Below, piece by piece: positions 12,326 through 26,673 of a stretch of DNA of 64,000 bases. Source of the stretch: a bacterium. GTDB taxonomy: Bacteria > UBA10199 > 2-02-FULL-44-16 > JAAZCA01. The position numbers were made by a program, and so were the translations under genes. The number at the start of each line of letters is the position of its first letter. Position 1 is the stretch's first letter. The stretch covers positions 186,001-250,000 of the forward strand of contig JAJZQH010000002.1 of assembly GCA_021810905.1 (NCBI GenBank), given 5' to 3'. The notes under the pieces are model-generated. The model ran no database searches, was not told the origin of the DNA, and worked only from the letters and a program-made list of their open reading frames with translations.

Positions 12326-15300
12326 CTAGTTTTTTCTCGCGTTGCTCGCCTGTCGCATGCGCTCCATGAAGGCCTCCAGCCGCATGCGGTTGTGCGTGGG
12401 CTTTAGTCCCTCGTAGATCAACGTGAGCTTCGGTATGTGCGGCCAGTCCTTGTCGATCTGCGCCAGCACCGAGCCGACTACGAGTCCGTAAGTGCAGTGG
12501 AAAGTTATGACACTTATGATTCCGTCCGCTCCGGCGTGCAGCTGTTCGAGGATCGCCGCAACAGAACCGGTGAGGCCCGCGGGAAGTTTCATGTCCATGT
12601 ATGGCGCGAGAAGGCGCTTCGCGCGTTTGAAATCCAGCGGCACCTCATAGTCGAGGTCGTTGCTGAATATTTCGCGCACCTCGCGCTCCAGCTTCCCCAC
12701 CAACCCGCGTAATACGAGCGCCTGCGCAAGGTTGCCGACGTTGCGATGGCGTATTGCCGCACCGGTGCGCTGGCGCGATTCGTATTTGACGAATTCGGTC
12801 ATGGTCGGAGGAATCATAACCACTCCTCCCATGCGCTCTATGTCGCGGAAGAGATCCGCGTTGGCGAAGTCGCAGATGCGCGTATAGTAGTCACCTGTTA
12901 TTCCGATCTTCACGCGTTTATTCGTCCTGTCGACTGCAACTTCCGCGAGCTTATTCCTTGCGGCGGAGAGCCCGTCCACCGGTCTGCCCTCGTGGATGTG
13001 CTTCATCAGGATCTCGAGCGCGATCGCGTTGGCGCGATCGGCGGAGCCCGGCTCCTTTTCGTATGCCCTGCGCTCCAGGTGCATCTGCATGAGAAAATCC
13101 ATGCCGCGCATCATTCGCCAGTATGCGCACAGCGATCTCAGATAAGACCATCCCGCAGCTTTGCCAGCCGATGCCATCACGTCTTCAACGCGAGTGAAAA
13201 TGGGCAGGTCCACGCCCGCGCGCTCGGCAGCGAGCCGCATCTGTGCGCCGAACTGCGCTACCCGGCACGTGCCTGCCTCCGGCATGTAATAACATACGTC
13301 GGACTTCCCCTTTTCGCGCATGGCCACTTTGAGGTAATCGCCCAGCATGAGCACGTATGGGTGGCATTCGCCGCTTCCGGAATACAGCGCTCCGAGGCGT
13401 GCAGACTCGTCGTCCGGCAGGGGCGTTAGCTCGGCGTCGAGTCCCAGCGAGCGGATCGCCGCGGCGAAAGCGAGGCTGTGCGCGGAGAAGTTGGGCATGT
13501 ACACGCGGCGCATGCCGCGCGGCGGAACAAACGGGCTGCGCGTCCGATTTTCAACAGCGGGTGCGTCCGCGATAGAATCGAGAAAAGCCTCGATGCGCGT
13601 CTCAAGGCCTACGGCGGAGCTGTGTTCATCTACCTCAAGTATCAACATCGGCTTTTTCCCGACGATGTCGCGCACAAAACTTGTTGTGAACGAATCCGGT
13701 CCACAGCCGAAGCTCGTTATCATCACTGTGTAGAGGTTTTCGGTTTTAGCGGCTATCTGTGCGGCAGCGAGTATCTCCTTGCCGTGCGACCAGAACATCG
13801 TGCGATAAGCCGCCGAGTATGCGCCGGAGTCGTCTACCAGCATGTCCTGTGTGAGCACCACTTCGCCGCGTGATTCGAGAAGTTCCGCCGCTCCGAGCGA
13901 GAGCCTCTTGTCGCATACGTTATAATCCTTACCCAGGATCACAAATGCGCGCGGAATTCCGCCATTCTTGATCTCAGCGAGCGTGCGCCGTCCAATGCGC
14001 GAGAGCTCGGAGCGGACGTTTTGCAGCTCTTGCACGGCGGATTTCCAAGCCTTGCGCCCCGCGCTGCGTGCGTGTCCCAGCTTCGAAGCGAGATTCTCCA
14101 TCTCGCGCGCCTCGCTTCTCGGGTCCAGCTTCCAGTTGACGACGGGATTGAGTATGGGCGTCGATACGACAGGCCGCGCGAGTTCCGAAAGCCCCTGGAC
14201 GTAGGGACAATGCGCGGTATCCTTATTGTGCGAATCCCTGCCCGTTATCACGAACGACGGGACGAATATGAAATCCACACCCTTTGACTCGAGCCACTGC
14301 AGGTGCGAGCAGAACGCTTTTATAGGCAGGCAGGTCTCGACTACCAGGCGTTTGAGACCTTCCGAGAGGATCGCGCTGTCCGTTGGAGGCGAGAGCACGA
14401 CTTCGCAACCCAGCGATTCGAAGAACGTGCGCCACGCCGGAAACATGTCGAACGCAAACATGGCGCGCGGGATTCCGACGCGCACTCGTGCGTTCGTAAC
14501 GTCGTGCGTTGGTACGTTCGTGCGTTCGTGCGCTCGCAAAACCTGTCCAGATTTACGATCGCACGAGAGTACGATCGCACCAACGCACGGCGTGTCGCCG
14601 AACATGAGCCGTTCGCGCCGCTTCAAAAGCGACTCTCCGCAGCGGGTTGGCTGCTTCGTATCAGTATCCCACTTTCCGCATCTGCCTCCGAATTTCAGCG
14701 GCTCGTCGCCGCCGGTCACGGTGATCGTGCAGCGGTTCGGGCATTCCTCGCAGATTTCCCGTCGCAACTCCATCGAAGCCGCGTTCTCCATGGAGAAGCG
14801 GCTCTCCGCGAACTTTCCCGAGCGCCGCGCATCCATCGCGGCTATCGCCACTCCTATGGCGCCGGAGATGCAGCCCTCCGCCGATGTGTTCACTCGCCGA
14901 GAAAGAGATTTCTCAAGCGCCGATACAACAGCACGATTTTTGGCGACACCTCCGAGGAAGAGAACGCGCTCGCCGATAGCGTGGCCGGATATGACCTTTT
15001 CGGAATAATTAGCGACAACGCTCATCGCCAGCCCGGCCACGAGATCGCGCCTGGAAAATCCTCGCTGCTGCTGAGAGACGAGGTCCGATTCCATGAATAC
15101 GGTGCAGCGCGCGCCGAGTTCTGCGGGATGTTCGCTCGAAAAAGCCAGATCCGAAAATTCCCGATCGAGCTCTATTTCCAGGCGAGCGGCCTGCTCCTGT
15201 AGAAACGCGCCGGTACCGGCGGCACAGACGCGGTTCATCGCAAAGTGCACGGGCCTGGTTCCATCGAGCCTCATGAACTTCGCATCCTGACCGCCGATTT

Positions 15301-16555
15301 CAATGACGGTATCGCAGCCCGGCATGAGAAACGCGGCAGCGCGCGCCTGGGCCGTGATTTCGTTCTGAACAACGTCGGCGCGGAAGAGTTTTCCTATGAA
15401 ATGCCTTCCGCTGCCGGTGACTCCAACTCCAGACACGCGCAGCGCGGGGCGCGAGGCAGCTATCTCCGAGATCATCGCGCGCAGCGCATCCAGCGGTCTG
15501 CCTTCCGAGAATCGATAGTCGGAAAATTCAAGTCCGCCGGGGCCGATTGCCGCGATCTTTACGGATACGGAGCCGACGTCGATGCCGAGATATGTCCCGT
15601 CTATGTCGAGTCCCGCAAAATTCGCATTGAGCGGCGCCTCTCGCGGAGCCGTCAACCTCCTGCCCGCGTGGCCTGAAATGAGCGGCTTTGCATTTTCTTC
15701 CGCCACAGGTCTGAATTTTTTTACCAGCGCAGCGATGGAGATTGCTTCGGATGCGCCCTCTCTTGCGGAGATGAGCGCCGCGCCTATCGCGCCCATCACC
15801 TTGAAATAACGCGGCACGATAAGTTCTTCTTCCGAAATGCAGAGTAGTTTTCGGAAAGCGGCGATAAGCCCCTGGTTTGCGGCGACGCCGCCTTGGAAAG
15901 CGATCGGCCTCGGCAGCGTCTTGCCGCGCACGAGGTTCGAGAGATAGCTTCGCGCAAGGGCCTCGTTGAGGCCGGCGACGATATCAGCAAGCGGCCTGCC
16001 CTCCTGCTGGTGGTGCGTCATGTCGGTTTTTGCAAAGACCGCGCACCGGCCCGCTATCGGTACGGCATCCCTGGAATCCTTTGCAAGCGAGGCGAAATCT
16101 TCGATGGAGAGGCCGAGCCGCGCGGCCTGCTGGTCGAGGAATGCGCCGGTGCCCGCGGCGCACAGTTCGTTGAGGCTGAAGTGCTTGACCGCCAGAGAAC
16201 CATCGCGCGGCGATTGTTCGAACGTGATGAGCTTCGAATCCTGGCCGCCGATCTCTATGATGGTGCGTATTTCAGGATGTATGAAGGATGAAGCCGATGC
16301 GTGCGCGGAGATCTCGTTCACCGAAGTAGCGGACATTGCTCCGGCGACCAGCCCTCGTCCGCTCCCGGTTACTCCGGCGCTGAGATACGATGAGCCTGGG
16401 AATTCATCCGCGCACTCGCGAAGGAGATTTGACAGCGCCACGAACGGCCTGCCGGCAACGCGCACCCAGCGCTCGAAGCGCACCTCCATCGACTCGTCGA
16501 GGAGTACGACCTTGAGCGATATGGAACCGAGATCTATGCCGAGATGAAAGCGCAT
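12326..16555 (-). CDS. Giant CoA-substrate-specific activase: two BadF/HgdC ATPase domains plus HgdB-like region
   Basis: 1409 residues. The start at 16555 begins exactly at the first ATPase domain; an in-frame ATG at 16600 would read through palindrome F. Two ASKHA ATPase modules: the first with GIDLGSISLKV, GVTGSGR, IGGQDSK and CAAGTGAFLDQQ; the second with GIDVGSVSVKI, GVTGSGRHF, IGGQDAK and CAAGTGAFLQEQ. The conserved Cys of each CAAGTG would hold the bridging 4Fe-4S cluster. A Cys-rich stretch (CEECPNRCTIT), a DUF2229-like region and a dehydratase-B-like C-terminus follow. The family drives low-potential electrons into 2-hydroxyacyl-CoA dehydratases or benzoyl-CoA reductases at ATP cost; the partner enzyme is not in the window. 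Residues about 655-692 are encoded by a palindromic repeat inserted in frame. Confidence 0.88.
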   Translation of the reverse strand: MRFHLGIDLGSISLKVVLLDESMEVRFERWVRVAGRPFVALSNLLRECADEFPGSSYLSAGVTGSGRGLVAGAMSATSVNEISAHASASSFIHPEIRTIIEIGGQDSKLITFEQSPRDGSLAVKHFSLNELCAAGTGAFLDQQAARLGLSIEDFASLAKDSRDAVPIAGRCAVFAKTDMTHHQQEGRPLADIVAGLNEALARSYLSNLVRGKTLPRPIAFQGGVAANQGLIAAFRKLLCISEEELIVPRYFKVMGAIGAALISAREGASEAISIAALVKKFRPVAEENAKPLISGHAGRRLTAPREAPLNANFAGLDIDGTYLGIDVGSVSVKIAAIGPGGLEFSDYRFSEGRPLDALRAMISEIAASRPALRVSGVGVTGSGRHFIGKLFRADVVQNEITAQARAAAFLMPGCDTVIEIGGQDAKFMRLDGTRPVHFAMNRVCAAGTGAFLQEQAARLEIELDREFSDLAFSSEHPAELGARCTVFMESDLVSQQQRGFSRRDLVAGLAMSVVANYSEKVISGHAIGERVLFLGGVAKNRAVVSALEKSLSRRVNTSAEGCISGAIGVAIAAMDARRSGKFAESRFSMENAASMELRREICEECPNRCTITVTGGDEPLKFGGRCGKWDTDTKQPTRCGESLLKRRERLMFGDTPCVGAIVLSCDRKSGQVLRAHERTNVPTHDVTNARVRVGIPRAMFAFDMFPAWRTFFESLGCEVVLSPPTDSAILSEGLKRLVVETCLPIKAFCSHLQWLESKGVDFIFVPSFVITGRDSHNKDTAHCPYVQGLSELARPVVSTPILNPVVNWKLDPRSEAREMENLASKLGHARSAGRKAWKSAVQELQNVRSELSRIGRRTLAEIKNGGIPRAFVILGKDYNVCDKRLSLGAAELLESRGEVVLTQDMLVDDSGAYSAAYRTMFWSHGKEILAAAQIAAKTENLYTVMITSFGCGPDSFTTSFVRDIVGKKPMLILEVDEHSSAVGLETRIEAFLDSIADAPAVENRTRSPFVPPRGMRRVYMPNFSAHSLAFAAAIRSLGLDAELTPLPDDESARLGALYSGSGECHPYVLMLGDYLKVAMREKGKSDVCYYMPEAGTCRVAQFGAQMRLAAERAGVDLPIFTRVEDVMASAGKAAGWSYLRSLCAYWRMMRGMDFLMQMHLERRAYEKEPGSADRANAIALEILMKHIHEGRPVDGLSAARNKLAEVAVDRTNKRVKIGITGDYYTRICDFANADLFRDIERMGGVVMIPPTMTEFVKYESRQRTGAAIRHRNVGNLAQALVLRGLVGKLEREVREIFSNDLDYEVPLDFKRAKRLLAPYMDMKLPAGLTGSVAAILEQLHAGADGIISVITFHCTYGLVVGSVLAQIDKDWPHIPKLTLIYEGLKPTHNRMRLEAFMERMRQASNARKN
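14484..14590. repeat. Iterated-word palindrome C, copy 1, in frame inside the activase gene
   Basis: Eight-base words GTGCGTTC, GTAACGTC, GTGCGTTG, GTACGTTC, then loop AAAACCTGTCCAGATTT, then complementary ACGATCGCACG words. No stop codon in the activase frame. Loop shared with copies at 21171, 21751, 23235 and 38515. Confidence 0.88.
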
Positions 16556-16578
16556 GGTGTCCAATGTAAAAAAACCGC

Positions 16579-16727
16579 GCGCTGTCTGAGCGGAATGCAT
16601 GTTGAGCGCGCCTAGAGGAGGCCGGGTTCAGCAGCCGTATAATAATTCCGGCCGACGTAAGGCAGGCGGCGAGCCGGCGTTTGAGGCGAGCTGCCGGCGC
16701 TCAACATGCATTCCGCTCAGACAGCGC
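16579..16727 (+). repeat. Variable-arm palindrome F, copy 3
   Basis: Perfect 31-bp arms (16579-16609 with 16697-16727) around a core with GAGGAGGCCGGG, an inner GGCCGG..CCGGCC stem and GAGCCGGCGTTTGAGGCGA. It occupies the whole gap between the two minus-strand genes on either side. Confidence 0.92.
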
Positions 16728-16757: not shown

Positions 16758-19109
16758 CTACTGCGAACTGTATTCCAGCAATTCTTCTTCGCCCCTGAGC
16801 ACGCGCAGGGCGCCGCTCACTAGGGCCGCGGTTTCGGATTCTCCGGGGTAGACAAAGACCGGGGCGATGTGATCCACGTGCGCCTTTATGAAGCGCGTGA
16901 GCTTGCGGCAAATGGCAAGCTCGCCGGTGAGCGCTATGGCGTTTACCCTGCCGGACATGGCCGCCGCGAGCGCGCCGATCTCTTTTGTCACCTGATATCC
17001 CATGGCTTCTATAGCGCGGATCGCCGCTTCATCGCCGCTGCCCACGCGCCGGTCTATCTCCGCGGCATCGGAGACGCCGAGATATGCGAGCAGTCCGCCG
17101 GCGCTCCTGATCTTATGCAAGACCGATTTTTCGGTGGCGCCTTCTGCAAAGCACATCCTCACTACGTCCACGGTAGGAAGCGATCCGGCGTTCAGCGCCG
17201 AGAAAGGCCCGTCGCCGTCGAGCGCGTTGTTCACGTCAACAACCTTGCCCTGTTTGTGCGCTCCAACCGAAGTCCCTTCTCCCATGTGCGCAACGATGGC
17301 GTTGATTTTGTCGTGCCTCTTCCAGAGGTTTTTCGCGACGCGGCGAACGACCGCCTTCTGGTTCGATGCGTGGAAGATGCTGGAGCGCCTGATCTCCGGC
17401 AGTCCCGTGTAGCGCGCGAGCTCTTCCATCTCGTCTACGGCCACCGGATCCACGATGAACGCGTCGATGTCGTTGGCCTCGGCGATTTCATATGCGATGG
17501 CCGCGCCCCAGTTGGAGGGATGCTGGCGCCAGGCGTGTTGTTCGATGTCATCTATCAGCGCGGTGGTCACGCGATATGTGCCGCCGGGCAGAGGGTGGAG
17601 AAATCCGCCGCGGCCGACCACTGCATTGACCGTGGAGAGGTCGATGCGGTGCTCCGCAAGGCGCTCAGAAATCGCGTTTTTCAACGCGTTGAGCTGAATC
17701 GTTCGTTCGTCGTCAGACATCACGCGCTGCAGCTGATGAGGGATGCTCGTCTCGAACACCGGCACGTCGTCGTCGAAGATCGCGATCCTCGTGGCGAGCT
17801 GGCTGGGGCAGACGGACAGCACCCTGAAGCTGGGCAACTCCCTGGGGCGTATCATGGCGCCTATTCCGCCGCCTATCAGCGCGGGCAAGACCCAGCCCAG
17901 CCCGTGATGATGCAGCGGCAGCGCGGTGAAAAACGCGTCAAAACCGGCCGCCTCAAATCCACCCGTGCGAATAGCGCTCAGCGTCCCCACGAGGCCCGCG
18001 CCTATGACCGCCCCCCTCCAGGTGTTGCGGTTTTCAAAGGCCGGTCCCGCAAGACAGAGGATCACGAGCACCATCACCACCGGGTAGAGTGCCAGAAGCA
18101 CCGGAAGAGCGACATTCACGATTGTCTCGACGCCTGCGTTTGAGAGCACGAGGCTTATTGCCGCTGTAGCGATGCAGAGCGCCTTGTAGTTCAGTTTTCC
18201 GTAAGAGAGCTTGTTGAAGTATTCCGCGCAGAGCGTAGTGAGTCCTACCGCTGTAGTGAGGCAGGCCATGGATACCGCTGTCCCCAGGGCCGCGCTCCCC
18301 GCGCCTCCGCCGAGCTGGCGAGCTATGAACGTGAGCAGTCCGGTACGCGTAAATTCTCCCGGCACAGCGCTGGACGTTGCGCCAAGGTATATGAGCCCGC
18401 AGTAGATGACGGCCAGCGTACCCGTGGAGATGAGCCCTGCCTTGATGATCACGCTCATCTGTTTTCGTTTTTCAAAGAGCCCCTTGCTGCGCAGTTCGTT
18501 GAGGATGATGATTCCGAAGATCGTAGCGCCGATGAGGTCCATCGTCTGATACCCCTCGACGATGCTCCGGCCGAACGGATTCGGCGTTTCAGTCGCTGCC
18601 AGCGGAGCGATGGGGTGAATGATGCCCCTCACGATGAGGTATGCGAGTGATGCGAGGAGTATCGGAGTCAGGATCTTGCCGATCCTGTCCACCACGGCCA
18701 GCGGGTTGAGCGTAAACGCCAGCACCACGCCGAAGTAGATGAATGAAAAGAGCCATGAGCCCACCCACGGTATATTCGGAGCGATGCCGAGTTCATAGGT
18801 GGTGGCGCAGGTGCGGGGTATCGCGAAGAGCGGGCCTATGGCGAGTATGGCCAGGACGGAGAGTATTTTGCCGAAGACCGGGTTCACGCGGCGTGCGATG
18901 TGGTCTATTCCGCCCTCTGCCTTTGCCACGGCCAGAAGGCCCATCAGCGGAAGTCCTACTCCGGTGAGCAGAAAGCCGAGGCCGGACCACTCGAAGCGGT
19001 CGCCGAACATCCTGCCAAGCGCCGGTGGGAATATGAGATTGCCGGCTCCAAAGAAGATCGCAAAGAGCGCGAAGCCGAGGACGATTACGTTTTTTCTGGA
19101 ATATGTCAT
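16758..19109 (-). CDS. Fusion of BrnQ-type branched-chain amino acid carrier and butyrate kinase
   Basis: 783 residues. Residues about 1-435 are a BrnQ/LivII Na+ (or H+) coupled branched-chain amino acid transporter: ALFAIFFGAGNLIFPPALG at the N-terminus and roughly twelve hydrophobic segments. Residues about 440-783 are butyrate/branched-chain fatty acid kinase of the acetate-kinase fold: VVGRGGFLHPLPGGTYRV, FIVDPVAVDEM, HASNQKAVVRRVAK, AHMGEGTSVGAHKQG, ALTGELA and VYPGESETAAL. The kinase makes ATP from acyl phosphate. Together they suggest uptake of Leu/Ile/Val and ATP gain from the isovalerate, 2-methylbutyrate or isobutyrate made from them. The start at 19109 matches the family N-terminus; a TTG at 19127 has a GGGAAG upstream and is an alternative. 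The reading frame is unbroken across the junction. Confidence 0.9.
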   Translation of the reverse strand: MTYSRKNVIVLGFALFAIFFGAGNLIFPPALGRMFGDRFEWSGLGFLLTGVGLPLMGLLAVAKAEGGIDHIARRVNPVFGKILSVLAILAIGPLFAIPRTCATTYELGIAPNIPWVGSWLFSFIYFGVVLAFTLNPLAVVDRIGKILTPILLASLAYLIVRGIIHPIAPLAATETPNPFGRSIVEGYQTMDLIGATIFGIIILNELRSKGLFEKRKQMSVIIKAGLISTGTLAVIYCGLIYLGATSSAVPGEFTRTGLLTFIARQLGGGAGSAALGTAVSMACLTTAVGLTTLCAEYFNKLSYGKLNYKALCIATAAISLVLSNAGVETIVNVALPVLLALYPVVMVLVILCLAGPAFENRNTWRGAVIGAGLVGTLSAIRTGGFEAAGFDAFFTALPLHHHGLGWVLPALIGGGIGAMIRPRELPSFRVLSVCPSQLATRIAIFDDDVPVFETSIPHQLQRVMSDDERTIQLNALKNAISERLAEHRIDLSTVNAVVGRGGFLHPLPGGTYRVTTALIDDIEQHAWRQHPSNWGAAIAYEIAEANDIDAFIVDPVAVDEMEELARYTGLPEIRRSSIFHASNQKAVVRRVAKNLWKRHDKINAIVAHMGEGTSVGAHKQGKVVDVNNALDGDGPFSALNAGSLPTVDVVRMCFAEGATEKSVLHKIRSAGGLLAYLGVSDAAEIDRRVGSGDEAAIRAIEAMGYQVTKEIGALAAAMSGRVNAIALTGELAICRKLTRFIKAHVDHIAPVFVYPGESETAALVSGALRVLRGEEELLEYSSQ

Positions 19110-21176: not shown

Positions 21177-21246
21177 ATCGTAAACCGTGAATCGTAAAGA
21201 CCTGAGTGGGGTTGCGATCCACGAATCACGATCCACGAATAACGTA
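21171..21246. repeat. Iterated-word palindrome B, copy 1
   Basis: Words GTGAATCGTAAA, loop GACCTGAGTGGGGTT, then GATCCAC, GAATCAC, GATCCAC, GAATAAC in register of seven. Fills the gap before nuoC; loop shared with copy 2 at 38515 and the C copies. Confidence 0.85.
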
Positions 21247-21250
21247 CAAA

Positions 21251-22999
21251 ATGGCGATAGAGTACATCAAACTGCTTGAGGAGCGGCTTGGCGACGCAGC
21301 CGTCGAGTCGCATTCGTTCCGCGGATTCGAGAGCGCCGTGGTCCGAAGCGGTGCGTGGGAGCGCGCGCTTGAAATCCTCAAGACCGACGGCAAGCTCAAC
21401 ATGCTCACAGATCTGTGCGGCCTCGATCATCCAGGGGAAAAAGACAGATTCGAAGTAGTTGCTCACCTCTATTCCGTTGAAAAGAAGAAGCGCGTGCGGC
21501 TCAAGACGCGATGCCCAGAGGACGACCCGTCGATCTCAACCTCAACGCGCGTCTATCCGGCTGCAGACTGGTTCGAGCGAGAGGCCTTTGACATGTATGG
21601 CATCCGGTTTGATGGGCACCCGAACCTCAAGCGCATACTATGCCATCGCGATTTTGTCGGACACCCCCTGCGAAAAGACTATCCAAAGGAGAAGCGCCAG
21701 CCGTTTTCCACGCCCGACACTCTGATGGACGAGATGGAAATCCTGGATCCGTGCGACCGTCCGATCGTCCGATCGTCCGATCGTAAAATCTTGGACGGTG
21801 TTACGATCGCACGAAGTACGATCGCACGATCGCACGATTCACGGTTTTTGCTCAACATCGGTCCCTCGCATCCTGCTATGCACGGCTGCTTCCGCGTGCT
21901 CGTTGAACTGGACGGGGAGCGCATAAGAAATGCAGTGCCTGAGATCGGATACATGCACCGCTGCTTTGAGAAGGAAGCAGAGGCGCACACCTGGCACCAG
22001 GTGATCGCGTATACGGATCGGTTGAATTACGTATCGCCGATAATGAACAACGCGGGCTACTGCATGGCGGTGGAGCGCCTGCTCGATATCGAAATACCGG
22101 AACGCGCAAAGTGGATACGCATGCTCGCGTGCGAAGTCTCGCGCATATGCGATCACCTCGTTGCGGTGGGCGCAAATCTCGTGGATATCGGAGCGCTCAC
22201 GAATTTCTGGTACCTCTTCAACGCGCGCGAGCAGTTCACCGACTGGATCGAAGCGCTTGCGGGGGCGAGGCTCACGGCTACCTATACGCGCATAGGAGGG
22301 CTTTCGCGCGATATCCCTGCTGGTAGCAACGCGCAGTTGAGATCCTGCATAAAGACGATGCGGCAGGCGATCAAGGACGTGGCCGCGATGACGAAAAAAA
22401 ATCGTATACTCATCGACCGAACGCATGGGATCGGCGCCATCTCCGAAGAAGAGGCGATAACGCGCGGATTTACCGGGCCATGCCTGCGCGCCACCGGCTG
22501 CGCCTACGACGTGCGGCGCGCGCACCCGTACTATTTTTATGACGATATCGAGTGGGACGTGCCGGTGGGAATTCGCGGTGACACCTATGATCGGATCTTC
22601 GTGCGCATGGAAGAGATGGAGCAGTCCGCCCGCATAATCGAGCAGGTCCTGGAGCGCCTGCCGGAGGGCCCGATCATGACGAGCCGCAGGGACGTGGTCC
22701 TGCCGCCGCCGCACGAGGTTTATGGATCAATCGAAGGGATGATGCAGCACTTCAAACTCGCGATGCACGGAATCCATCCGCCCGAAGGAGAGGTCTATTC
22801 GTATACCGAAGCGGCAAACGGGGAACTAGGTTTCTATATAGTATCCGACGGCTGCGAGAGGCCTTATCGCGCAAGGGTGAGGGCGCCATGCTTTCCCATC
22901 TATCAGGCGTTTCCCATGCTGATAAAGGGACATCTCGTAGCTGATGTGGTCGCAATCATGGGTAGTTTGAATATCATCGCAGGGGAGCTGGATAGATAA
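21251..22999 (+). CDS. nuoCD: NADH-quinone oxidoreductase fused subunits C and D
   Basis: 582 residues from the ATG at 21251. Residues 1-168 are NuoC (WFEREAFDMYGIRFDGHPNL, GHPLRKDYP). Residues about 198-582 are NuoD (IGPSHPAMHG, EIGYMHRCFEKEAE, TYTRIGGLSRDIPAG, PPEGEVYSY, ending DVVAIMGSLNIIAGELDR), which with NuoB forms the quinone site. NuoCD fusions are known in enterobacteria. Here the linker, residues about 168-197 (CDRPIVRSSDRKILDG..), is encoded by a palindromic repeat, which points to an independent, recent fusion. The usual NuoD His/Asp quinone-site residues appear in the HPAMHG context. Confidence 0.93.
   Translation: MAIEYIKLLEERLGDAAVESHSFRGFESAVVRSGAWERALEILKTDGKLNMLTDLCGLDHPGEKDRFEVVAHLYSVEKKKRVRLKTRCPEDDPSISTSTRVYPAADWFEREAFDMYGIRFDGHPNLKRILCHRDFVGHPLRKDYPKEKRQPFSTPDTLMDEMEILDPCDRPIVRSSDRKILDGVTIARSTIARSHDSRFLLNIGPSHPAMHGCFRVLVELDGERIRNAVPEIGYMHRCFEKEAEAHTWHQVIAYTDRLNYVSPIMNNAGYCMAVERLLDIEIPERAKWIRMLACEVSRICDHLVAVGANLVDIGALTNFWYLFNAREQFTDWIEALAGARLTATYTRIGGLSRDIPAGSNAQLRSCIKTMRQAIKDVAAMTKKNRILIDRTHGIGAISEEEAITRGFTGPCLRATGCAYDVRRAHPYYFYDDIEWDVPVGIRGDTYDRIFVRMEEMEQSARIIEQVLERLPEGPIMTSRRDVVLPPPHEVYGSIEGMMQHFKLAMHGIHPPEGEVYSYTEAANGELGFYIVSDGCERPYRARVRAPCFPIYQAFPMLIKGHLVADVVAIMGSLNIIAGELDR
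21751..21840. repeat. Iterated-word palindrome C, copy 2, linking nuoC and nuoD
   Basis: Words GTCCGATC x3, loop AAAATCTTGGACGGTGTT, then CGATCGCA words. In frame, no stop; 30 codons. Confidence 0.88.
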
Positions 23000-23020: not shown

Positions 23021-24610
23021 ATGTTCAATATGACTCCAGATAGAAACAGGCGCGCAGGCGAAATCCTCGCAGCTTATCCGCAAAGGCGCGCGGCGATTTT
23101 GCCGCTTCTGTGGCTCGTGCAGGAGCAGGAGGGCGAGATCTCACAAGAGGCGATGGCGTATGTCGCCGAACTTGCGGGAGTAGCAAAGGCCGAGGTCTGC
23201 GAGGTCAAGAGCTTCTACGCGATGTTCAACAGCTCGTGCGTTGGTGCGATCGTGCGATCGTGCGATCGTAACAGCATGGGCGGGTTTTTCGATCGCACGA
23301 TCGCACCAACGCACGAACGCACAGGTTTTGACGAACGCACGAACGCACGATCGCACGATCGCACGATTTGCGCTCACCCCGTGATCTCAAGGCACTTCGA
23401 CGTGCCGCGTATGCACGAACTCAACGTGGCCCGCCAGCACGGCGCATATGTATCGCTCGCAAAGCTCTCGCGCATGAAGCCGGAAGAAGTGGTGGCGCTG
23501 GTCATGGACTCGGGGCTGCGGGGGCGCGGAGGCGCGGGATTTCCCGCGGGCGAGAAGTGGAGGCGCATCGAGCGCAGGGCCGGCGCACCTGTCTATCTCG
23601 TCGTAAACGCGGATGAAGGAGAGCCGGGCGCGTTCAAGGACCGCGCAATAATGGAGCGCGATCCGCATCTGCTCCTGGAGGGCATCGAGATAGCCGCATA
23701 CGCAATCGAAGCAGAGAAGGTATTCGTCTATATCCGCGGAGAGTACGAAGGCCCGCAGCGCATATTCGAGCATGCCCTCGGCGAGGCGTGCGCTGGTGGA
23801 ACGATTCAACGCGACTATGTCATCTGCCGCGGCGCGGGCGCTTACATATGCGGCGAAGAGGGAGCGCTGCTCAATTCCATAGAGGGCCGGCGCGGCGAGG
23901 CGCGCATCAAACCGCCGTACCCGACTCAGGCAGGCCTCTTCGGCTGTCCCACGGTCGTGCAGAACGTGGAGACGCTTGTCTCGCTTCCGTTCATCCTGCG
24001 CGAGGGCGCGATGGCCTTCCGCAGGATAGGCACTCCGCAAAGCCCGGGCACCAAACTCATAAGCATCAGCGGAGACGTGGAGCGCCCCGGCGTGTACGAG
24101 GTGGAGATGGGCACGTCACTGAGCGAGTTCATCTCAGGGCCGGCAGGAGGAGTATCATCAGGCAAAAGGCTCAAGGCCCTCTTTCCGGGCGGCGTATCAG
24201 TGCCGGTGCTCACGGCCCCCGAGGCCCTGACCGCGCGCATAGATTTCGAATCGATCGAGGACGCGGGCTCAAAGCTCGGCACCGGTGGAATGATAGCCAT
24301 TGGCGAGGGCACGTGCATGGTCCGCGTGCTCTCGGATATAGCGCGCTTCTTTGCCGACGAATCGTGCGGGGAGTGCACGCAATGCCGCGAGGGCTGCGGC
24401 TGGATTGCGGGGATCGCGCGCCGCATGGAGCTGGGTCAGGCGAATCGCGACGAGATAAACGTAATGATCGACGCAGCGGACGGCATGAGCGGCCGCACGA
24501 TATGCGCGCTCGCGCATGGTCTGGCCTCAGCCACACTCTCGATCATCGCCAAATTCAGAAATGAGTTCGAACAGCACGTGAAGGAGGGACATTGTCCTTG
24601 TGGTAGATGA
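23021..24610 (+). CDS. nuoF: Truncated NuoE fused to NADH-quinone oxidoreductase subunit F
   Basis: 529 residues. Residues 1-70 match only the N-terminal helical half of NuoE (LLWLVQEQEGEISQEAMAYV, VKSFYAMF). The thioredoxin-like half, whose four Cys bind the N1a 2Fe-2S cluster, is missing; residues about 72-117 come from a palindromic repeat. NuoF then starts (PVISRHFDVPRMHELNVA) and is complete: SGLRGRGGAGFPAG and NADEGEPGAFKDR for FMN/NADH, GAGAYICGEEGALL, and the N3 4Fe-4S ligands in CGECTQCREGC. Electron entry from NADH should work through FMN and N3 without N1a. Whether the chimera is cleaved or made as one chain is unknown. It lies 21 bases after nuoCD. Confidence 0.92.
   Translation: MFNMTPDRNRRAGEILAAYPQRRAAILPLLWLVQEQEGEISQEAMAYVAELAGVAKAEVCEVKSFYAMFNSSCVGAIVRSCDRNSMGGFFDRTIAPTHERTGFDERTNARSHDRTICAHPVISRHFDVPRMHELNVARQHGAYVSLAKLSRMKPEEVVALVMDSGLRGRGGAGFPAGEKWRRIERRAGAPVYLVVNADEGEPGAFKDRAIMERDPHLLLEGIEIAAYAIEAEKVFVYIRGEYEGPQRIFEHALGEACAGGTIQRDYVICRGAGAYICGEEGALLNSIEGRRGEARIKPPYPTQAGLFGCPTVVQNVETLVSLPFILREGAMAFRRIGTPQSPGTKLISISGDVERPGVYEVEMGTSLSEFISGPAGGVSSGKRLKALFPGGVSVPVLTAPEALTARIDFESIEDAGSKLGTGGMIAIGEGTCMVRVLSDIARFFADESCGECTQCREGCGWIAGIARRMELGQANRDEINVMIDAADGMSGRTICALAHGLASATLSIIAKFRNEFEQHVKEGHCPCGR
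23235..23370. repeat. Iterated-word palindrome C, copy 3, inside nuoEF
   Basis: GATCGTGC words, loop AACAGCATGGGCGGGTTTTT, then GATCGCAC, CAACGCAC, GAACGCAC, a second ACAGGTTTTG half-loop, and more GAACGCAC/GATCGCAC words. Octamer register kept throughout; in frame with no stop. Confidence 0.9.
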
Positions 24611-24660: not shown

Positions 24661-26673
24661 ATGAATAATTTTAGCGAAAAAGTGAATTTTATCGATCAGG
24701 TTGCGAGCCTTCTTAGGGGGCCATATCGCCCTAATCAATATAAAGATGTAATGCTGCCTTTAACTGTCCTGCGCCGTCTCGATTGCGTGCTGGAGCCGAC
24801 AAAGGAAAAAGTTCTGGAACAGCAGAAAAAGCTCTCTGGTGGAAAAATTAAAAATATCGAACCGATTCTCCGCCGAATAACGAAATTCCCCTTCTTCAAT
24901 ACAAGCCGTTTTACATTCTCAAAGCTCAAGGGTGATTCTACTCATATTGTCGCGAACCTCGTCAACTACATCAAAGGTTTCTCCAGTCGCGCCCGCGAGA
25001 TACTCGATCACTTTGGCTTTGAGGAACACATCGCCAGGCTCGACAAGGCGGATCGCTTATATCTCGTTGTTTCCAAGTTCTGCGAAATCGATCTACATCC
25101 GAATGCAGTCTCAAACATCGAAATGGGCTATATCTTCGAGGAACTCATCAGGCGCTTCAATGAAGCCTCTAACGAAGAGGCGGGCGATCACTTCACCCCG
25201 CGCGAGGTCATTCGCCTGATGGTGAATCTCCTCTTTATGCCGGACAGCGACGTCCTGACGAGAAAAGGAATCATAAAAACCCTGTACGACCCGGCGTGCG
25301 GAACGGGTGGGATGCTCTCAGTTTCCGAAGCATTTGTGCACGAACTCAACCCCGATGCCCGTCTTGAGGTCTTCGGGCAGGATTACAATGCCCAGGCGTA
25401 TGCTATTTGCGGTTCGGACATGATGATAAAAGGACAGGATATTGATCACATTGCTTTTGGAGACAGCTTCACCAGCGATCATTTGCCGCACCACAAGTTC
25501 GACTACATGCTGGCCAATCCGCCATTCGGCGTGGAATGGAAGCCGGAAGAAGATTTCATTCGCAAAGAACACGAAGAACGAGGGTTTGGCGGTCGTTTCG
25601 GCGCGGGGCTTCCGCGCATCAACGACGGTTCGCTTCTTTTTCTCCAGCACATGATCGGCAAGATGAAAAACCTGAAAGATGGAGGCACGCGGCTGGCCAT
25701 AGTCTTCAATGGCTCGCCGCTCTTTACAGGTGGGGCGGGTTCGGGTGAGAGCGAAATCCGGCGCTGGATCATCGAAAACGACTGGCTCGAAGCAATCGTA
25801 GCCCTGCCTGACCAACTTTTCTACAACACCGGAATCTCTACCTATCTCTGGATCGTTACGAATCGTAAGAAACGAAGTCGCAGGGGCAGGATTCAGCTCG
25901 TGGACGGGACTTCTTTTTTCAAGAAGATGCGAAAATCCCTAGGCAACAAACGCAACGAGATCTGCGATAATCAGCGCGATGAAATCGTCCGCCTCTATGG
26001 AGAATTGATAGACGGTGAATATGTGCGCGTATTTGACAATGCCGACTTCGGTTACCGCAGGCTTACGGTAGAGCGCCCGCTTCGACTCAATTTTGTCATC
26101 GACGATGAGCGAATTGAACGTATGAAACAGACTGGCGCATTCGCAAATCTTGCAACCAGCAAAAAGCGTAAGGATTCAAAGGCTGCCGAAGCGGATATCG
26201 CCGAGGGCAAGAAGCTACAGCAGGCTATCATTTCGGTCCTGTCCACCCTCGTATCCAGGGGCGTCATCAAAAATCGCGACAAGTTCGTGAAGATGGTGGA
26301 TGCCGCATTTAAAGCGGCAAAAATCAAGCTGCCTGCCGCAGTTTTCAAGGCAATACTTGCGTCCTTGTCCGAACGCGATGAGACGGCGGACGTCTGCACC
26401 GATGCAAAGGGTAATCCTGAGCCCGATCCTGAGTTGCGCGACTACGAAAACGTGCCTCTGAAGGAAAACGTAGCAGAGTATATGAAGCGCGAGGTCATGC
26501 CGCATGTGCCCGATGCATGGATAGATGAAACAAAGACCAAGATCGGCTACGAGATCAACTTCAACCGCCATTTCTACAAGTACACTCCACCGCGACCGTT
26601 GGAAGAGATCGACGCCGATCTTAAAAAGATAGAGGCGGAGATCGCCGGCATGCTCGGGGAGGTAGCGGGATGA
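24661..26673 (+). CDS. hsdM: Type I restriction-modification system DNA methyltransferase subunit
   Basis: 670 residues. N6-adenine methylase of a type I R-M complex. N-terminal helical HsdM domain, about 1-160; SAM-binding motif I DPACGTGGML at residue 210; catalytic motif IV NPPFG at residue 286. A long C-terminal extension ends in a coiled coil (PLEEIDADLKKIEAEI) that would contact HsdS. First gene of a four-gene cassette lying between nuoF and nuoG, 50 bp after the nuoF stop and on the same strand; base composition is a little more AT-rich than the nuo genes. The stop overlaps hsdS (ATGA). Confidence 0.93.
   Translation: MNNFSEKVNFIDQVASLLRGPYRPNQYKDVMLPLTVLRRLDCVLEPTKEKVLEQQKKLSGGKIKNIEPILRRITKFPFFNTSRFTFSKLKGDSTHIVANLVNYIKGFSSRAREILDHFGFEEHIARLDKADRLYLVVSKFCEIDLHPNAVSNIEMGYIFEELIRRFNEASNEEAGDHFTPREVIRLMVNLLFMPDSDVLTRKGIIKTLYDPACGTGGMLSVSEAFVHELNPDARLEVFGQDYNAQAYAICGSDMMIKGQDIDHIAFGDSFTSDHLPHHKFDYMLANPPFGVEWKPEEDFIRKEHEERGFGGRFGAGLPRINDGSLLFLQHMIGKMKNLKDGGTRLAIVFNGSPLFTGGAGSGESEIRRWIIENDWLEAIVALPDQLFYNTGISTYLWIVTNRKKRSRRGRIQLVDGTSFFKKMRKSLGNKRNEICDNQRDEIVRLYGELIDGEYVRVFDNADFGYRRLTVERPLRLNFVIDDERIERMKQTGAFANLATSKKRKDSKAAEADIAEGKKLQQAIISVLSTLVSRGVIKNRDKFVKMVDAAFKAAKIKLPAAVFKAILASLSERDETADVCTDAKGNPEPDPELRDYENVPLKENVAEYMKREVMPHVPDAWIDETKTKIGYEINFNRHFYKYTPPRPLEEIDADLKKIEAEIAGMLGEVAG

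Follow-up and report, generated by a model that had tools for sequence, protein, structure and literature searches.

A BrnQ branched-chain amino acid transporter fused to a butyrate-kinase-like domain that is predicted to be catalytically dead

BrnQ has 12 helices, its C-terminus is expected to lie in the cytosol, and it belongs to the BrnQ/LIVCS branched-chain amino acid:cation symporters (PF05525, TIGR00796). Among the butyrate kinases (Buk; EC 2.7.2.7/2.7.2.14), the T. maritima butyrate kinase 2 (Buk2; PDB 1SAZ, 1X9J; TIGR02707) has the ASKHA fold, and its numbering is used below. In Firmicutes, buk and brnQ are found together in one pathway, as separate genes in that order and with intact kinase active sites. 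The cluster of UBA4845 (L064) runs ptb, the large and small subunits of 2-oxoacid:ferredoxin oxidoreductase, buk and brnQ, and that of a member of Tissierellia (L053) runs oxidoreductase subunits, buk, brnQ and aminotransferase, with no ptb in view. In Acetomicrobium (L083), a brnQ has two buk and two ptb genes in its vicinity, and the kinases of all three loci retain the PHOSPHATE1 motif and Arg214. An intact buk adjoining 2-oxoacid:ferredoxin oxidoreductase and brnQ gives the pathway link a basis, and the connection of Buk and BrnQ with 2-oxoacid oxidation in the original prediction for the present locus has in these separate genes its precedent. Buk is also known to us as a C-terminal fusion partner: a genome (G121) from the phylum of a Desulfobacteraceae MAG (G072) encodes, beside an acetate kinase gene, a 731-aa phosphotransacetylase-like/Buk fusion (L162:2317-4512, minus strand), whose first half appears from a reading of its sequence to be Pta and whose Buk site is intact (NPGSVST, PSRAG).

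In ROK-family repressors (e.g., Lmo0178, 5F7Q) the sugar-kinase-like ASKHA fold serves as a ligand sensor, not as a kinase. Two roles have been described for this family (PMC4856308). In the transceptors CbrA and Amt-histidine kinase, a nutrient transporter is joined to a cytosolic signalling domain (PMC7096432, PMC13022988, PMC5764959). These transceptors and the ROK repressors are the nearest working analogies for the gene described here, though the signalling domain of the former is a histidine kinase where the BrnQ fusion would have an ASKHA pseudokinase, and the latter are soluble DNA-binding sugar regulators whose fold resembles the fused kinase domain only distantly.

The gene lies in a window of 64,000 nucleotides, the whole stretch of DNA that was analysed, from a bacterial genome (G000) assembled in 21 contigs and 99.5% complete. 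Its parts, in window coordinates, are the following.

16758..19109, minus strand: brnQ-buk fusion gene, 783 aa in a single frame with ATG start
17850..19109, minus strand: BrnQ/LIVCS transporter domain, residues 1-420 (PF05525, TIGR00796, all-helical model)
17829..17849, minus strand: short linker, residues 421-427 (sequence and alignment with the G003 fusion, L003)
16761..17828, minus strand: butyrate-kinase-like domain, residues 428-783, predicted catalytically dead (TIGR02707, 1x9j/1saz, fold match)

In translation the frame is open from the ATG (19109) to the stop, 783 codons without an internal stop; taken mechanically, the frame starts at a TTG 18 bases further upstream, but the region of homology starts at the ATG. 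Profile searches matched residues 1-420 to PF05525 (E 2e-119) and TIGR00796 (346.9 bits, cut-off 243.4), and residues 428-783 to TIGR02707 butyr_kinase (395.4 bits, cut-off 289.1, model positions 1-348 of 351), so both halves exceed the curated cut-offs over their full length. The kinase half matches 1x9j/1saz at E 5e-88, with about 43% identity to Buk2. Unlike Buk2 it is fused behind a transporter, and unlike the known BrnQ/LIVCS symporters the protein carries an added C-terminal domain of 355 residues, expected in the cytosol. No known RNA element, such as a T-box, was found near the gene. A query with the whole fusion found no second BrnQ and no second Buk in the genome, its sole other match being an acetate kinase adjoining a phosphoketolase.

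The fusion also occurs in a second genus of this family (G003), with 65% identity over 778 residues and no internal stop, and in both genomes the methionine-synthase genes and a small membrane protein lie on one side and divergent nuo genes on the other. This recurrence with conserved flanks on both sides rules out an assembly artefact without the need for reads, and the fusion of a full-length BrnQ/LIVCS carrier with a full-length Buk domain is confirmed as real. The original prediction had described a complete carrier and a complete kinase in one frame, and had proposed to look for the domain pair in other genomes. Both halves are indeed full-length and the pair recurs in the same neighbourhood; beyond its length, the completeness of the kinase did not hold, as its nucleotide-handling motifs and a catalytic arginine are lost.

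Tandem units of 8 bases (CGTGCGAT/CGTGCGTT), in inverted pairs, occur in the window at 14478-14592, 21749-21847 and 23226-23368, where they sit in frame inside a neighbouring activase ORF and at the nuoC/nuoD and nuoE/nuoF junctions. Because of these in-frame repeats, nuoC-nuoD (21206-22999) and nuoE-nuoF (23021-24610) are each one ORF with a repeat-encoded linker; in G003, nuoC and nuoD are separate ORFs. The strict repeat pattern has 7 occurrences in G000 and none in three related genera. A gene for a type I restriction-modification HsdM-like methylase (24661-26673, plus strand) is situated within the nuo cluster, with the nuoE/F frame on one side and nuoH (34185) on the other; since nuoH directly follows nuoD in G003, the two genera differ here and the stretch is possibly an insertion. 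For the brnQ-buk gene, an origin by repeat expansion as at the nuo junctions was rejected, because inspection of the BrnQ/Buk junction found no such repeat. An origin from the buk-brnQ operons of Firmicutes was rejected as well, because those operons have the opposite gene order and the tree places the fused kinase apart from the kinases of L053 and L064.

Among 46 genomes of the phylum, the fusion is found only in G000 and G003, which provide the two known sequences. A fusion-based search found no BrnQ and no Buk in two further genera of the family (G001, G002), and a member of the same order (G008) has a standalone BrnQ, 61-62% identical to the transporter half of the fusion, and no Buk. No other fusion was found in 395 genomes of the phylum of G072, in 398 genomes of the phylum of Tepidibacter (G050) under a strict E-value, among the best 80 loci of a wider genome-contig search with BrnQ peptides as query (other than those already named), or in the plasmids and viral contigs searched. 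The original prediction did not recall such a fusion as described, and we likewise found no published description of one in the open-access literature, a scope that most subscription papers fall outside.

The kinase half was compared directly with Buk2 and, for both fusions, in an alignment with 60 standalone Buks, namely Buk2 itself and 59 taken from retrieved loci. These comparisons gave the following positions.

17787..17810, minus strand: PHOSPHATE1 loop position, residues 434-441, CPSQLATR in place of NPGSTSTK
17268..17288, minus strand: PHOSPHATE2 loop, residues 608-614, HMGEGTS in place of HxGGG(I/V)S
17190..17192, minus strand: codon 640 (Asn) at the invariant catalytic Arg (Buk2 R214; acetate kinase Arg241), Ser in G003
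16914..16928, minus strand: ADENOSINE motif, residues 728-732, TGELA in place of TGGxA (Buk2 TGGLA)
17610..17612, minus strand: retained Arg500 (Buk2 R74; acetate kinase Arg91)
17520..17522, minus strand: retained His530 (Buk2 H104; acetate kinase His123)
17370..17372, minus strand: retained His580 (Buk2 H154; acetate kinase His180)
16833..16835, minus strand: retained Glu759 (Buk2 E334; acetate kinase Glu384)

The PHOSPHATE1 loop reads CPSQLATR in G000 and CPSQLATH in G003. Four of its positions are restricted to one or two residues in all 60 standalone Buks and altered in the fusions, namely 8 (N/D, replaced by C), 10 (G, by S), 11 (S/G, by Q) and 13 (S/T, by A), and two more are nearly or largely so, namely 12 (T in 59 of 60, replaced by L) and 15 (K in 53 of 60, by R/H). 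Position 214 is R in all 60 and has become N in G000, where PERSGTLP of Buk2 is changed to ALNAGSLP, and S in G003. The second Gly of PHOSPHATE2 (HMGGGIS in Buk2) is Glu in G000 and Asp in G003. The ADENOSINE glycine is Gly in just 46 of the 60, and neither this site nor position 105 (A to P) was given weight, because both vary among the standalone Buks. In a leave-one-out comparison over 46 invariant columns, derived from a first set of 32 Buks, the fusions lose 8 and 9, against 0-4 and mostly none for standalone Buks. Asn7, Ser10, Ser11, Ser12 and Lys14 of PHOSPHATE1 belong to fifteen hallmark residues (PMC4390882), and all five positions are altered together with the Arg241 equivalent in both fusions. 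Acetate kinase of M. thermophila keeps 0.3-0.4% of kcat when R91A or R241A is introduced, and that of P. gingivalis keeps 0.6% (R91A) or 3.9% (R241A) of its activity (PMC6461089). To judge from the residues, any single change might leave trace activity, and in combination they make ordinary kinase function unlikely; since R241A acetate kinase keeps some activity, residual or altered catalysis is possible. Elsewhere Buk has retained its site when joined to a partner by fusion or linkage, as in G121, where the partner is a phosphotransacylase-like pathway enzyme, and the BrnQ fusion differs by losing it.

The original prediction placed an ATP-forming last step on the fusion, which would then be an active bifunctional protein making ATP from branched-chain acyl-phosphate at the membrane beside the importer. 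Such activity would agree with a full-length Buk domain scoring far over the TIGR02707 cut-off and with the Firmicutes operons that join 2-oxoacid oxidoreductase (in L064 also ptb) with buk and brnQ. It would also agree with the POR-type 2-oxoacid oxidoreductases of G000, which answer to the predicted ketoacid oxidoreductase, but these are also present in relatives without the fusion. The predicted phosphate acyltransferase failed to appear: no Pta/Ptb (PF01515) and no PduL (PF06130) was found by profile search in G000 or G003, with positive controls, so there is no enzyme of a known type to supply branched-chain acyl-phosphate. Frames of about 700 aa with PF13607, as in NDP-forming acyl-CoA synthetases, are found in both genomes and, assigned by domain and length only, could make ATP directly from acyl-CoA as an alternative route. 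With the PHOSPHATE1 loop and the catalytic Arg gone in both genera, the ATP-forming role is not supported and we consider it very improbable. Ketol-acid reductoisomerase is kept in the genomes, so no branched-chain amino acid auxotrophy is obvious.

An acyl-CoA dehydratase activase family protein of 1424 aa, with two BcrAD_BadFG stretches and DUF2229, is encoded next to the fusion (12326-16600, minus strand), and a perfect 31-bp inverted repeat (16579-16609 / 16697-16727) lies on the fusion side of its gene. This neighbour had been taken to suit amino acid fermentation. The syntenic G003 locus lacks the gene in the stretch from the fusion to the next conserved gene, so it must have been gained or lost after the two genera split, and its presence here does not testify to a common pathway; as a pathway partner it was rejected because of this absence from an otherwise conserved sister locus.

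On the acyl side, Buk2 R74, H104, D128, H154, H182 and E334 are all kept in the fusions in the 60-Buk alignment; by motif they map to Arg91, His123, Asp148, His180, His208 and Glu384 of acetate kinase. That the acyl/phosphoryl-acceptor side is kept while the nucleotide side is lost suggests that a carboxylate, an acyl-phosphate or a similar ligand is still bound and controls uptake. The kept phosphoryl-acceptor-side His/Arg and Mg-site residues (Asp128/Glu334 equivalents) would also serve an altered enzyme, with another reaction in the cleft such as acyl-phosphate hydrolysis or non-nucleotide phosphoryl transfer, and Entamoeba has a PPi-using acetate kinase with changed nucleotide motifs (PMC4390882). 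We hold this to be improbable, as the fusions lack the second catalytic Arg and carry a thoroughly replaced PHOSPHATE1 loop, and as the genome has no known source of acyl-phosphate other than acetyl-phosphate, which the phosphoketolase would make.

Between G000 and G003 the kinase half is 69.8% identical (dN 0.23, dS 1.38, dN/dS about 0.16) and the transporter half 60.5% (dN 0.31, dS 1.27, dN/dS about 0.25), the ratios being rough because dS is near saturation. The tree joins the two fusion kinases with 100/100 support; their common stem measures 1.01 changes per column and their tips 0.19 and 0.32, that is, much change before the genera split and constraint after. The stronger conservation of the kinase half, together with the long stem and short tips, fits a repurposed pseudoenzyme. 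Were the kinase half a decaying passenger of an accidental fusion, drifting without a role, the loss of invariant residues would be expected, but not its greater conservation than the transporter half, the lack of stops, the low dN/dS, the short tips following a long stem, or the derived C, S, Q, L and A common to both fusions; this explanation is hardly credible and already contradicted by constraint. Elsewhere in the tree, a very long branch leads to a Buk-like domain that follows about 175 extra residues in one open frame of 538 aa (L141:1489-3102, minus strand), perhaps a further Buk of unusual type.

Of 72 sites conserved in 27 standalone BrnQs, the transporter half has retained 70, and residues 1-420 give a confident, all-helical model. 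The full-length model was built from an alignment of BrnQs alone, with the kinase half mostly below pLDDT 55, and the domains were also modelled separately because Buks aligned poorly in the full-length alignment. From five sequences the kinase domain gave a model of moderate confidence (mean pLDDT 69), which in a PDB fold search retrieved butyrate kinases first and acetate kinases next. An intact transporter and a conserved non-transport domain are present in a single chain, as would be expected of a transceptor. Acetate and butyrate kinases form dimers or larger assemblies, and a module for oligomerisation or stability that senses no metabolite is the main competing explanation, one that would account for a kept fold under strong constraint after the loss of catalytic residues. 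Selective keeping of Arg74, His104, Asp128, His154, His182 and Glu334 is unexpected if only the surface mattered, and we regard this structural role as rather unlikely, though deserving of serious weight.

The tail is probably concerned with metabolite sensing or with holding the transporter together, rather than with making ATP. We favour, as on balance likely, a BrnQ symporter with a cytosolic pseudo-butyrate-kinase domain that is kept by selection and most likely senses a metabolite to control uptake. More tentatively, it is quite possible that the former Buk, having abandoned ATP chemistry, still has a branched-chain acyl(-phosphate) or carboxylate as its ligand and provides a metabolite-gated BrnQ with feedback sensing of its own. 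The C-terminal domain would descend from a butyrate/branched-chain-fatty-acid kinase, would be unable to run the kinase reaction at a useful rate, and would be maintained by purifying selection for another role. Placed in the cytosol, as is expected of the BrnQ C-terminus, the domain would be exposed to metabolites inside the cell. The acyl-side residues that remain most likely bind a metabolite from the breakdown of branched-chain amino acids, be it a carboxylate or a compound resembling an acyl-phosphate; the domain would open and close as other ASKHA proteins do, and its state, relayed to the transporter, would act as feedback on uptake. Catalytic death, ligand binding and control of transport are what we infer here, and a role as sensor is suggested by analogy.

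The fusion is also a warning against annotation by family score, because the equivalog model calls Buk despite the lost nucleotide loop and catalytic arginine, and the system is small enough for standard transport and binding assays. If our reading is true, a metabolic kinase would in this case have become a permanent regulatory domain of a secondary transporter, which would be rare. Such a protein would be a counterpart of the ROK repressors that is linked to a transporter, and within this one chain a downstream product may directly determine uptake.
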